DNA from: a virus
DNA: 33,369 nt
Virus record (IMG/VR): IMGVR_UViG_3300032236_000560
Span: 1-33,369 of that record
Strand: one strand, 5' to 3'
In this document: positions 7,094-16,095 of the stretch, in pieces
How positions within the stretch are numbered: the first letter of the stretch is position 1
How the letters are laid out: each line of letters begins with the position of its first letter
Made by a program: the position numbers and the translations under genes
Notes under the pieces: generated by a model
Seen by the model: only the letters and a program-made list of their open reading frames with translations
The model's database searches: none
Told to the model about the DNA's origin: nothing

Positions 7094-7864
7094 ATGGATA
7101 AGTCAAATATTAAATGGTCTAGTTTATTAAGTGATGCAGTCAATAAGCCGGGTGTTATTAGTAACTGCTACACAGTATTTCACAATTACAGTTTAGGTAA
7201 TCAATTGCTTGCATGGTCGCAATTGGCCGGGCGTGGTATGGAACTTTCACCAATAGCAACATATAAGAAATGGCAGGAACTGGGTAGAAATGTAAAAAAG
7301 GGAGAAAAAGCACTAATGCTTTGTATGCCCGTAATGATCAATAAAAAAGACGATCAAGGAAATAAGACTGAGGAATGTTTTCAGGCCTTTACTTTTAAAA
7401 ATAACTGGTTCGCCTTAGATCAAACCGAGGGCGTAGATTATGCTAATGAGGTCAAAACGCCTGAATGGGATCCTGAACTCGCCTTGAATGCTTTAAATAT
7501 CACTCAGGTAAAGTTTGATAGTGCTAACGGTAACTCTCAAGGGTATGCTATTGCAAAGAATATCGCTATCAATCCGGTTGCACAATTCCCGCATAAAACG
7601 AGGTTCCATGAGTTGGCGCATGTGGTGCTAGGTCATACAGTAGAGCATATGATGAGTGATTCAGAATTCACGCCTAAGGATATAAGAGAGATTGAGGCTG
7701 AATCAGTAGCCTACATTTTATGCTCTGTACTGGGTTTACCCGGCCTTGAGGAATCAAGAGGTTATATCCAGCATTGGTTAGAGGGTAATGAGATTAGCGA
7801 GAAATCGGCTCAAAAGATATTTGGCACGGCCGATAAGATTTTAAAAGCAGGTAAGTCAGAATAA
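7094..7864 (+). CDS. ardC: ArdC-type antirestriction protein with zinc metallopeptidase domain
   Basis: A 256-residue protein. Residues 1-105 match the ArdC N-terminal single-stranded-DNA-binding domain: SNCYTVFHNYSLGNQLLAW, then GRGMELSPIATYKKWQELG and VKKGEKALML. Residues 110-256 are the metallopeptidase-like domain with FHELAHVVLGH (H172, E173, H176) and a later EAESVAY (E201-Y207) supplying the third ligand. ArdC proteins of plasmids protect incoming DNA from restriction endonucleases; whether peptidase activity is needed is unclear. GAGGAG precedes the ATG. It is the second early gene, flanked by the two double-hairpin spacers, fitting expression straight after entry. The catalytic residues look intact. 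Confidence 0.9.
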   Translation: MDKSNIKWSSLLSDAVNKPGVISNCYTVFHNYSLGNQLLAWSQLAGRGMELSPIATYKKWQELGRNVKKGEKALMLCMPVMINKKDDQGNKTEECFQAFTFKNNWFALDQTEGVDYANEVKTPEWDPELALNALNITQVKFDSANGNSQGYAIAKNIAINPVAQFPHKTRFHELAHVVLGHTVEHMMSDSEFTPKDIREIEAESVAYILCSVLGLPGLEESRGYIQHWLEGNEISEKSAQKIFGTADKILKAGKSE

Positions 7865-8775: not shown

Positions 8776-8872
8776 AACCGTATGGGTGAAACCTAAAAGC
8801 AGGTGCGAGGTACTAGGGGTTTGTCAGAATAACCCCAAATGCCCCAGCTGCCCAAATAAAAGTGTGATATGA
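8762..8872 (+). CDS. 36-residue Cys-rich peptide
   Basis: ATG at 8762 lies inside the end of the previous gene; TGA at 8870-8872. Four Cys in C-x5-C-x5-C-x2-C order (CEVLGVCQNNPKCPSC) look like a zinc knuckle. The ribosome binding site is weak, so expression may rely on coupling. The rest is basic. Plausible but short. Confidence 0.5.
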   Translation: MNQPRTVWVKPKSRCEVLGVCQNNPKCPSCPNKSVI

Positions 8873-8904
8873 TTATGGCCATTGCCGTGCAAAGCAATAA
8901 ATTT

Positions 8905-8983
8905 AAGCCGTTTAAGTCTGTATCTTGCCGATTGGGGAAACCCAATTGGTTTGCACCAAGGTACAGTTTTAAGCGGCTTTTTT
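8905..8983 (+). ncRNA. Long structured hairpin ending in a U-tract (putative ncRNA or terminator)
   Basis: 8905-8927 pairs with 8957-8979 over 23 positions with one mismatch (T-T) and three G-T pairs. Inside it, 8928-8936 pairs with 8941-8949 (nine pairs, one G-T) around a GAAA tetraloop, leaving a seven-base bulge TTTGCAC (8950-8956) on the 3' side only. The outer stem ends CGGCTT and runs into six T in all (8978-8983), as in an intrinsic terminator. This is far larger than a terminator needs to be. It may be a small RNA, an RNase III target or a protein-binding hairpin. An open frame passes through it, but that coding is doubtful. Confidence 0.55.
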
Positions 8984-9078
8984 ATTGTCTGTGCGGTAAC
9001 GTACCCCTTACGATAATAAGAACCCATGTCTGTGGTTGCGAGGGAGGAAAGCGGATCATCTTGGCCCAAGGGGGACGG

Positions 9079-9237
9079 ATGCTGGAGGGTGCTACCCCAA
9101 CGGATAAACAGACACTAGGCTTGATGACAAAAACGTGCGGACGTAATTCCGGTCTGATAAATAAAGCAGTAGCAGGTATTAAGGGTCAAACCCCAATGCC
9201 TACACCCAAGGCGGGTGAGTTATACGACTGGCTATAG
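9079..9237 (+). CDS. Small unknown protein, 52 residues (start uncertain)
   Basis: The ATG at 9079 has AAGGGGG four bases upstream and gives a 52-residue basic protein (MLEGATPTDKQTLGLMTKT ... AGELYDWL). The same frame is open back to an ATG at 8869 that forms an ATGA join with the previous gene, giving 122 residues including CLCG and CGC pairs. That longer version would have to be translated through the large hairpin at 8905-8983. I prefer the short start with modest confidence. No family is recognised. Confidence 0.5.
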   Translation: MLEGATPTDKQTLGLMTKTCGRNSGLINKAVAGIKGQTPMPTPKAGELYDWL

Positions 9238-9248
9238 TCCTACTATAG
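9232..9248 (+). repeat. Hairpin at the end of the small gene
   Basis: CTATAGT-CCT-ACTATAG is a perfect 7-bp inverted repeat that includes the stop codon of the preceding gene. It is followed by TCATCATCGTC, partly shared with the spacer at 7064-7071, and by two copies of GTCTAACG (9258-9265 and 9286-9293). No T-run is present. Confidence 0.4.
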
Positions 9249-9299
9249 TCATCATCGTCTAACGTAGCCCTTGTATTGTCTAACGATAAGTGAGTAACT

Positions 9300-9416
9300 A
9301 TGAGTGACATTGTCTCAACTGTACTAGCCCTCTTTGTCCTAGTGCTAATCTTAATATTGTTTTTAGGGTTTACTGTCATGTTTATTATTATGTTCGGAGG
9401 TAAGCAGGATGATTAA
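9300..9416 (+). CDS. 38-residue membrane peptide
   Basis: ATG at 9300 lies in the recurring GAGTAACT context. The peptide MSDIVSTVLALFVLVLILIL continues FLGFTVMFIIMFGG and ends KQDD: one long or two very short hydrophobic helices with almost no soluble part. It overlaps the next gene by eight bases. It could alter the membrane early in infection (superinfection exclusion, for example), but no family is recognised. Confidence 0.55.
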   Translation: MSDIVSTVLALFVLVLILILFLGFTVMFIIMFGGKQDD

Positions 9417-13404: not shown

Positions 13405-13565
13405 CGGAGGCATACGTTGCAGGATACAACGCAGCACTCCAAGAGATACAGATTAAGCCTGAGACTCAACCCAGTTTAAACGAGCAAGAATTGTATTACT
13501 CGAACCAGCGATTGTTGCGCTTGCAACCACATACAAAATGTCTGGGCCATCAGGGTAGAAGTTAG
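13329..13565 (+). CDS. Small protein overlapping convergent structural gene
   Basis: The 78-residue frame starts inside the nuclease-like gene with a strong AGGGAGG four bases before the ATG. Residues 17-45 (LEDFRRIVTEAYVAGYN, then AALQEIQ) read like a genuine small helical phage protein. The last 37 codons, however, run antisense to the end of the large structural gene (13453-16095), a 113-base tail-to-tail overlap. The N-terminal half is persuasive; the C-terminal half may be fortuitous. Confidence 0.5.
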   Translation: MEDSNLGLEEVSQGNVCLEDFRRIVTEAYVAGYNAALQEIQIKPETQPSLNEQELYYSNQRLLRLQPHTKCLGHQGRS

Positions 13566-16095
13566 CCTGTGATGTTGGAACAGTATTAGATGTTCCACCA
13601 CCAAGAGCCGCATTACCAATAGCTGCAATAGCAGATAAGTCATAAGTTGTTTGACCGCCTGTGTTGCTGTAGAAAGCTGCTATAGATGTACCGCCAGAGA
13701 TGGTGATTGTGTTTGTAGTGTTAACCGCTATTTGTGAGATAGAGTCTGTGTTAGTACCAGACTGTGCAACGCTACCAAATGTGCCTGAGAAACCAGAAGG
13801 TACACCATTCAAAATCAACTGCACTAGGTATGTGACGTTGGTCACTACAGCAATCTCACGCAACTGCAACTGCAAGCGGTTGATAATTTCTTTTAGACCA
13901 AACAAGCCAACTTGTCCGTTGTCCACAGACGGGGCAATACGAATAGCCATGATTGGCACGGCAGCCGTAGAGTTAGGGCTTGTCAGGGCTGTGGTCATTC
14001 CGTAGTTGTAAATAGCAGAGGCATCGTTGTTGAAGCCTCCATCCATGACGACAGATGATCCCCAATGTGATAGGAGAGCTGCGGTATCAGGAGCAGAGTA
14101 TTCAACTGAGACAGGCGCAGTAGATGAGTAGGTAAATGCAGTAGCAGATGCACCACCAGTTTGTCCACGAGTCACACCCAGCAACTGTGTTCCATTCATG
14201 GAAAGGTATTTAATGTATTCAACAACACCAGAAACACCAGATCCACGAATAATTGCAGTACCACCAGCAGGATTAAATCCAAAAGTGCTACTTACGTTAA
14301 TGGTTGTGTCTCCACTTGCAACGCTTGCCGTAATAAATGTTGTTTGAATTTCATTGTTTTGCTCATAGTGACTTGCCATGTTTCCAGAACGCAAGTAAGC
14401 CGTGTACTGCACGTTATTGTTTTGGAACGTATAAACGTAGGCAATCGCACCATTGGTAGTACGAACACCAAATCTTACCGCACCTGCACCATACCAAGAA
14501 TAATCAATGTACCACATCTGAACTTTGGTTAAATCAAGTTTAAATCCAGATGGATTAGCAGAACTGTTGCTACCGTCAAGCACGTCATACCATTGTGACT
14601 GAGGAATCTTTGTATCAATGGTGCGAGATACGATGGCGTTGGTGATAGATGCGCCCCTGTACTCAGGAGAGATAGACAGGCTTGTATCACTTGATATTGA
14701 CAGAACACGGTAAGATGCGCCCCGAATCACAATGTAGTCACCAACTACCAAAGTAGTTGAGAATGCTGTGTTTGTGCCAGTAACAGTACCCACGCCTTGA
14801 TTAACAGAGATTAAACCGGGTATTTGATTTACGCTAGTACGCAAGACTGCATACAACTGTTGACCGTCATACTGGAAGAACATTCCGTTTTGTGAATCTG
14901 TAAAACCGATCTTGTTGCTAGATCCAAACCAGTTGGTTGGGCTAACGTGAAGTATGTTGGGAACAGTAGACGTTGCAGTTGTTACACTTGGAACAACATT
15001 ATTAATGGTGCTGTATGTAAATGTTGTTGCACTTGGAACAGATGTGATCTGGAAGTATCCGTTGTAAACAGATTGGTCAGCGCCAGAAACCGTTACAAAA
15101 GTATTGATCGTCAAATTGTGGGCAGTCTTAGTCGTAACTGTAACTACTGAACCGTTTGAGGTCAGTACAGGCAACTGGATCTGTGGGCACATGATTGTTC
15201 CAGTAGAAAACTGAATGCCTTTACCTGATTGGTAACGGAAGTATCTACGGGTTTGACGATACAAAATAGCATTAGGTACAGATGATCCAGCAGTAAAGTT
15301 TACAGATCCATCGTACGCACGAACAGTTACCGCACCAGCAGGTCTTGCATATACACAAACCTGTGTATTACCGCTAGAGCCGGGAGTTGTGGCAGTTCCT
15401 GTCAAAGTTGATGTAATTGTGAATACATTTTGTGCGGTAACACTTGCAACTACCCAAGGAGCGTTGAGTCCTGTGACTCCAGTTGTACCAACAATATAAA
15501 CCAAAGAACCTACTGAGAGGCCATGAGCATAAGTGGTGTTAACTGTGATGGCAGTACCAGACAATGTGATTGCCGTTGTACTGGCTGCAGCAACCGCAAT
15601 ACCACAGTTGGAATAGAAGTATCCAGCATAGATATAAGTTGATGTGGATGAATAACATGCGCTGGTAAATATTTGATTTTGCATGGTCAGGACGTATGAA
15701 GTCGCTGATGATGCAGTAGTGACCAATCCCCATCCAGCTGCGTTAGGGTCAACAGGGTCTTGAATAAAAATAGGTGTACCAACAGCATAAGTCACAGAAC
15801 TGGCACTAAGTGTCAAAGCCAACTGGTATTTATTGCTTTGATTACCAATGATTTGAGTTACAGCCAAAGGCGTATTTGTTAAGTAATAGCAAGACTGACG
15901 GTTCTGTTGCAGGGCTACTTGCTCCCACTTTGATGACTGCTGACCATATTCAAAGTCAGTATCAATCAGAGATTGAGGAGTACTTACTCTCAGCTTTTCC
16001 ACAGCATCATAAGCACCCGATCTTTGTTTTTGGAGTGTTAAGGCTTGGCTATTAGCTTGGCTACTTGGTTGTGGTGCAAATGATGATATGGTCAT
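13453..16095 (-). CDS. Large virion structural protein, 880 residues
   Basis: A Ser/Thr/Val-rich, all-beta protein and the last gene of the leftward block. The N-terminus (RSGAYDAVEKLRVSTPQ, then LIDTDFEYGQQSSKWE, about 26-58) is a pattern I recall from large structural proteins of several tailed phages. At about 180-232 and 313-365 two beta modules share AHGLSVGSLVYIVG and AHNLTINTFVTVSG. AAGGA precedes the ATG at 16095. No enzyme motif is seen. Possible roles are a tail appendage or a neck/whisker protein; I cannot decide between them. Confidence 0.8.
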   Translation of the reverse strand: MTISSFAPQPSSQANSQALTLQKQRSGAYDAVEKLRVSTPQSLIDTDFEYGQQSSKWEQVALQQNRQSCYYLTNTPLAVTQIIGNQSNKYQLALTLSASSVTYAVGTPIFIQDPVDPNAAGWGLVTTASSATSYVLTMQNQIFTSACYSSTSTYIYAGYFYSNCGIAVAAASTTAITLSGTAITVNTTYAHGLSVGSLVYIVGTTGVTGLNAPWVVASVTAQNVFTITSTLTGTATTPGSSGNTQVCVYARPAGAVTVRAYDGSVNFTAGSSVPNAILYRQTRRYFRYQSGKGIQFSTGTIMCPQIQLPVLTSNGSVVTVTTKTAHNLTINTFVTVSGADQSVYNGYFQITSVPSATTFTYSTINNVVPSVTTATSTVPNILHVSPTNWFGSSNKIGFTDSQNGMFFQYDGQQLYAVLRTSVNQIPGLISVNQGVGTVTGTNTAFSTTLVVGDYIVIRGASYRVLSISSDTSLSISPEYRGASITNAIVSRTIDTKIPQSQWYDVLDGSNSSANPSGFKLDLTKVQMWYIDYSWYGAGAVRFGVRTTNGAIAYVYTFQNNNVQYTAYLRSGNMASHYEQNNEIQTTFITASVASGDTTINVSSTFGFNPAGGTAIIRGSGVSGVVEYIKYLSMNGTQLLGVTRGQTGGASATAFTYSSTAPVSVEYSAPDTAALLSHWGSSVVMDGGFNNDASAIYNYGMTTALTSPNSTAAVPIMAIRIAPSVDNGQVGLFGLKEIINRLQLQLREIAVVTNVTYLVQLILNGVPSGFSGTFGSVAQSGTNTDSISQIAVNTTNTITISGGTSIAAFYSNTGGQTTYDLSAIAAIGNAALGGGTSNTVPTSQANFYPDGPDILYVVASATIAGSSNTILARLNWVESQA

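Follow-up and report, generated by a model that had tools for sequence, protein, structure and literature searches.

In the temperate elements P4 and P1, a small RNA made at the start of an operon, the CI RNA and the C4 RNA respectively, recognises its own leader and causes termination. The put RNA of phage HK022 forms a two-stem structure at the heads of early operons and lets polymerase pass terminators, and the pRNA of phage phi29 is a small RNA involved in DNA packaging, with loop-loop pairing between molecules. RNA-mediated antitermination of HK022 has been described (PMC6256539). In the Salmonella prophage Gifsy-1, one promoter gives rise to a short terminated RNA, IsrK, and to a read-through operon mRNA (PMC4825925); in that account as consulted, IsrK influences how a downstream ORF is translated, and a kissing pair of variable specificity is not described.

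The phage RNA presented here, which we call RNA1, is predicted from its sequence to share the arrangement of IsrK in that account (PMC4825925), with promoter, intrinsic terminator and operon read-through. A −10 box, a U-run and a co-conserved leader are present, as in an IsrK-like layout, and an Rfam scan of 8780–9320 showed no homology to IsrK. The P4 CI and P1 C4 RNAs follow the logic of one alternative weighed below, recognition of like RNAs in trans; RNA1 has no Rfam match to them and differs in that its complementary parts lie within one RNA, as a loop-bulge pair. Compared by description, RNA1 resembles HK022 put in being a structured RNA that heads early phage operons, whereas put prevents termination and lacks a terminator of its own. 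Like phi29 pRNA it is a small phage RNA with loop pairing, but RNA1 instead heads gene clusters, and no Rfam match to pRNA occurred in the window. Our literature searches returned no description of RNA1.

The window, i.e. the whole stretch of viral DNA analysed (33,369 nt, IMG/VR record IMGVR_UViG_3300032236_000560), carries RNA1 between an ArdC-like early gene and exonuclease/RecT genes. Its parts and surroundings are as follows, with the supporting evidence in brackets.

8868..8873, + strand: −10-like box TATGAT, 7 nt before P1, without a clear −35 in the window phage
8881..8898, + strand: P1, a 5-bp hairpin ATTGC/GCAAT (8881–8885 with 8894–8898) with an 8-nt loop
8887..8893, + strand: 5' strand of the kissing pseudoknot, GTGCAAA, in the P1 loop (covariation, permutation)
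8899..8904, + strand: linker AAATTT between P1 and P2, about 0–11 nt among members
8905..8927, + strand: 5' arm of P2, pairing with 8957–8979 (fold, covariation)
8928..8949, + strand: P3, in the window a 9-bp hairpin with a GAAA loop (fold)
8950..8956, + strand: 3' strand of the kissing pseudoknot, TTTGCAC, the former "bulge" (covariation, compensated pair)
8957..8979, + strand: 3' arm of P2, its base abutting the U-run as a terminator stem (fold, covariation)
8978..8983, + strand: U-run, predicted 3' end of RNA1 (sequence)
8985..9299, + strand: RNA2, non-coding leader from RNA1 to the first ORF, with its ATG at 9300 (conservation)

RNA1 therefore runs, over about 104 nt (about 8881–8984), from P1 with its kissing loop through linker, P2 5' arm, P3, kissing strand and P2 3' arm to six U. 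P1, the predicted 5' end, reads ATTGC-CGTGCAAA-GCAAT (8881–8898), and GTGCAAA in its loop is the exact reverse complement of TTTGCAC at 8950–8956. The initial annotation had drawn a hairpin at 8905–8983 with 23 paired positions including one mismatch, a seven-base bulge TTTGCAC, nine further pairs capped by GAAA and six terminal T. Folding of 8895–8995 returned this hairpin as drawn (MFE −46.2 kcal/mol, where shuffled sequences averaged −20.4; z −7.6; equalled by 0/200 shuffles): P2 comprises 22 pairs and one U.U mismatch (8917/8967), the bulge occupies 8950–8956, P3 pairs 8928–8936 with 8941–8949 around GAAA at 8937–8940, and the six T lie at 8978–8983. The hairpin is real and makes up just the 3' portion of the ~104-nt unit; the upstream hairpin (8881–8898), whose loop is the partner of the bulge, and the −10-like TATGAT (8868–8873) had been missed. 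The hairpin had also been proposed as a protein-binding or RNase III site; the bulge is not a free site of this kind, being one strand of a kissing pseudoknot with the upstream hairpin.

RNA1 was found in >45 other phage contigs. An exact copy of the P2 left arm is present in 11 further IMG/VR contigs, and the structure was identical in 11/11. Patterns for the right arm, the kissing strands and the P2 core added more contigs, and the members were gathered with a descriptor of the structure (P1, P2, T-run and a loop complementary to the bulge); one contig, L028 (phage ctn9Y15), came from blastn with a stretch that included RNA1. As the descriptor and the kissing-strand patterns demand complementarity, a selection blind to RNA1 was added. 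Downstream-only blastn matches gave L015 (phage ctz7E20) and L088 (phage ctsTn925), a conserved downstream piece gave nine new contigs (L090–L098), and another downstream piece gave L108. RNA1 was present upstream in 12/12 of these contigs, for which RNA2 or other downstream sequence had been the sole route of discovery: six of L090–L098 were confirmed by the descriptor, L092, L095 and L097, which share one RNA1 sequence, were recognised by eye and fold, and L015, L088 and L108 also carry RNA1. In ~2,770 random 330-nt windows the descriptor gave no false hit: a score of at least 30 was reached only at two true RNA1s that the filter had failed to remove. Each phage record holds one copy in one place, and a multi-copy repeat element was rejected on this ground, the minus-strand match being the echo of the palindrome. 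A bacterial host or prophage copy was sought in genome contigs and none was found, with two unrelated MAG matches later; one further pattern scan returned chance matches only, and no plasmid match was found.

Approximately 15 loop/bulge pair types occur among the members, all complementary: GTGCAAA, GTGAAGGA, GTGGAAG, GTGAGAG, GTGACGA, GTGAGAA(A), GTGACTGATA, TTGGCGGA, CTGATAAC, TAGCGT, GTCGTTGTC, GTAGCG, CTGTGGCGG and TCGCGT, each with its complement, and TTGGTCGG, in which 7/8 bases are paired. For the 13 core types, 0/20000 permutations were equally complementary. A kissing pair of 6–10 bp is kept across the family, and P3 is highly variable in length and sequence among relatives, with one or two hairpins at that place. 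In a 19-sequence alignment the kissing helix was paired in 99.2% of cells, with compensatory changes on both sides in 5/7 pairs; P2 was paired in 97.7% of cells (both-side changes in 12/23 pairs) and P1 in 90.7% (2/5 pairs). The covariation score over these three helices was matched by 0/500 shuffles, and sliding the partners lowered the paired cells from 97% to 45% or less. Since this alignment holds members picked by the kissing pattern, the 12 contigs found from the downstream region serve as the independent test. Furthermore, the RNA1s of L048 and L038 are identical except for two compensating changes on each kissing side. A covariance model of P1 and P2 without the pseudoknot found L028, L088, L090, L094 and L096, on which it had not been trained, at E values from 1e-10 to 4e-6; it did not detect L108, whose sequence is too divergent although its architecture is the same.

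The covariation proposed at the outset as a check on the long hairpin was borne out by both P2 and the bulge strand, and together with the relatives it marks the element as a conserved structured RNA and more than a chance hairpin or plain terminator, as had been supposed. We regard the existence of RNA1 as near certain. That a kissing pair is kept while its sequence is swapped suggests that the operon begins with a self-recognising switch.

RNA1 is a well-supported RNA family undescribed so far and without an Rfam entry, in line with the initial impression that no named family matched. A search of 4227 Rfam families at gathering thresholds left RNA1 unmatched both in the window and in relatives; a scan of 8780–9320 up to E = 10 returned just two chance-level matches to other families, and no tRNA or tmRNA was detected in the window. 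It is very improbable that the region is simply part of a protein-coding gene. The frame at 8869–9237 is open over 122 codons and crosses the hairpin, but in the close relative L007 a 19-nt insertion and numerous stops disrupt it, members of the RNA1 family share no frame, and the 122-aa product has no Pfam or PHROG match. This coding frame was rejected, being broken in L007 and not shared by the family; the early doubt that it was a gene was well placed, and the comparison with relatives points away from a region that is simply coding.

Upstream of P1, a −10-like hexamer agreeing with TATAAT in at least 5/6 positions lies within 24 nt in 78% of loci versus 6.7% of random places, and several RNA1 loci have TTGACA at a spacing of 15–18 nt. 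A strict two-hexamer scan listed no promoter in the window, where a clear −35 is lacking. At the other end, a T-run follows P2 in every RNA1 member, and 8957–8983 has the form of an intrinsic (Rho-independent) terminator, a stable stem directly followed by a U-run. A simple terminator scan did not list this stem; the scan allows loops of 3–8 nt only, hence it cannot register a stem that encloses a bulge and a further hairpin.

In loci read far enough, roughly 200–400 nt without a convincing gene separate RNA1 from the first ORF. The RNA2 of the window is conserved in L007 and L015, where the frame is not kept, and is 93% identical to that of L108. Its MFE alone is not significant (z −0.44), thus what we claim there is conservation and not a solved structure. 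The conserved 5' part of RNA2 starts about 10–40 nt past the U-run, which leaves little room for a promoter of its own, so that read-through would be its simplest source. Rfam family RF02932 matches within RNA2 of L029 (1276–1401), L031 (346–464, − strand), L041 (1051–1176), L090–L095, L097 and L098 at a threshold of 49.4 bits, which this window does not reach. The RF02932 model excludes RNA1, and many RNA1 loci, the window included, carry another RNA2 module. RF02932 (Betaproteobacteria-1), presumably defined by the 2017 survey of 224 candidate RNAs, is an orphan motif that gains a phage leader context here, as a module directly behind RNA1. RNA2 is itself modular in L030, L062 and L096, in which a first part as in other loci is followed by a different module. 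At the end of RNA2 in L029, L031, L041, L090, L094 and L098 there are two direct repeats of about 6–8 nt, the second near the ribosome site of the first ORF, and these co-vary between phages (GAGATA, GAGAGCA, AAGCAAA, AAGGAT).

Closely related phages were found to differ in RNA1. L097 and L098 share 92% identity upstream and 99% in RNA2, and L062 and L096 share 94% and 97%, yet their RNA1s score 60% and 59%, respectively, where unrelated stretches score about 55–60% by the same measure. The window and L108 are 93% identical over 320 nt downstream, with 69% in RNA1 and a different kissing pair. L002 and L017 carry almost identical RNA1s in unrelated flanks. From near-identical phages with different RNA1s, and the same RNA1 in unrelated flanks, RNA1 appears to move as a cassette between phages.

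Our preferred reading, held tentatively and short of probable, is that RNA1 is a promoter-proximal attenuator which also yields a small RNA of ~104 nt. Transcription would start at or just before P1, which would fold first, and its loop would kiss the bulge strand as it emerges; P2 would then close, and its base with the six U would end most transcripts and release RNA1, leaving a minority to continue into RNA2 and the genes of the operon. Control would rest with the kissing pair: its formation in cis, pairing in trans with free RNA1 or the binding of a factor would alter how many transcripts terminate and how many read on. The sequence itself shows the RNA, its kissing pair, the −10-like box, a terminator form, RNA2 downstream and cassette exchange, while we infer that transcripts terminate in vivo, that some read through and that the switch operates. 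The order of −10 box, P1, kissing pair, P2/P3 and U-run in >45 contigs, the covariation of three helices, the presence of RNA1 upstream in 12/12 downstream-found contigs and IsrK as a published phage parallel in arrangement, as far as that account goes (PMC4825925), argue for attenuation, whereas the missing clear −35 in the window, a P2 far longer than a terminator requires and an RNA2 not significantly stable by MFE in the window argue against it. In a coarse rigid-helix A-form model run from few starts, a cis kiss requires roughly 8 nt of linker or more once all 23 bp of P2 are zipped, and linkers of 2–6 nt fit only if the base of P2, the terminator stem, opens. With the U-run pairs left out, P2 has 18–21 bp and linkers reach 11 nt, so the conflict is milder and cis kiss and terminator may be compatible in several members, which also counts against the preferred reading; mutual exclusion of cis kiss and terminator is hence a modelling lead and not a result. 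The initial annotation had suggested a small regulatory RNA, of which the conserved structured RNA stands, and the promoter-like box and leader point more specifically to attenuation or self-recognition.

The main rival is that RNA1 recognises its own kind in trans: its loop or bulge strand would pair with RNA1 as it is being transcribed from a like phage and shut the operon of that phage. Superinfection exclusion or copy control of many specificities would result, by a logic comparable to P4 CI RNA immunity. This is unlikely, although it fits the variety best, with ~15 loop/bulge types within one architecture, near-identical phages with different RNA1s (L097/L098, L062/L096) and the L048 and L038 RNA1s differing in a compensated kissing pair alone; cassette exchange and drift, however, give variety too. 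Twelve records, among them three complete circular phages, contained no tyrosine integrase (PF00589), so there is no sign of lysogens needing immunity, which would count against classic lysogenic immunity and not against exclusion. That RNA1 forms a large family of hypervariable, self-complementary kissing RNAs whose loop/bulge pair is a specificity code, so that the RNA1 of each phage recognises only its own kind in phages lacking integrases, is rather unlikely; if true, it would mean RNA-only superinfection exclusion or copy sensing among related phages. We are more doubtful still that RNA1 acts in trans on host or defence targets, as a regulator, protein-binding RNA or decoy, with a structural kissing pair and a variety born of an arms race. 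Its early-region place downstream of an ArdC-like anti-restriction gene, the conserved P2 core beside variable parts and the exchange between phages would suit such a role, but RNA1 is always coupled to RNA2 and heads a gene cluster, and the unrelated P2 of L015, L088, L097 and L108 leaves no evident common sequence to bind. Specific support for the decoy, which the initial annotation had raised, was found in none of the comparisons made. A purely structural terminator or insulator, whose stabilising pseudoknot fixes or shields the end of the transcript and does no switching, would account for the strong stem with U-run and the single copy per record; it is improbable, as a terminator requires neither P1 nor a kept kissing pair of 6–10 bp and RNA1 has its own −10 box just upstream. 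As the kissing pair varies and yet stays complementary, even in near-identical phages, both RNA-based control of the operon, as in the favoured attenuator, and recognition between related phages are directly testable.

The RNA1 family spans otherwise different phages, with short tails in some and long tails in others, and the position of the RNA in the genome varies among them. By sequence reading and not by family search, a Cro-like gene precedes the RNA1 module in L009, L028, L029 and L051, a replication-like gene precedes it in L005, L013 and L025, and in L017 and L062 the module is near terminase or capsid genes. In L009, L028, L029 and L051 the small Cro-like HTH gene adjoins an Erf-like gene on the opposite strand, and no CI repressor gene is evident in between. 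The ArdC-like anti-restriction protein of the window is encoded at 7094–7864, upstream of RNA1, and an annotated antirestriction gene is likewise upstream in phage ctz7E20. As to a host, the name of RF02932 suggests Betaproteobacteria. By terminase, the nearest phages are MW202753 and MW202825 (Manatee Spring). Elsewhere in the window, a 21-nt inverted repeat with a 19-nt spacer lies at 14980–15040, inside a large virion protein gene (13453–16095).
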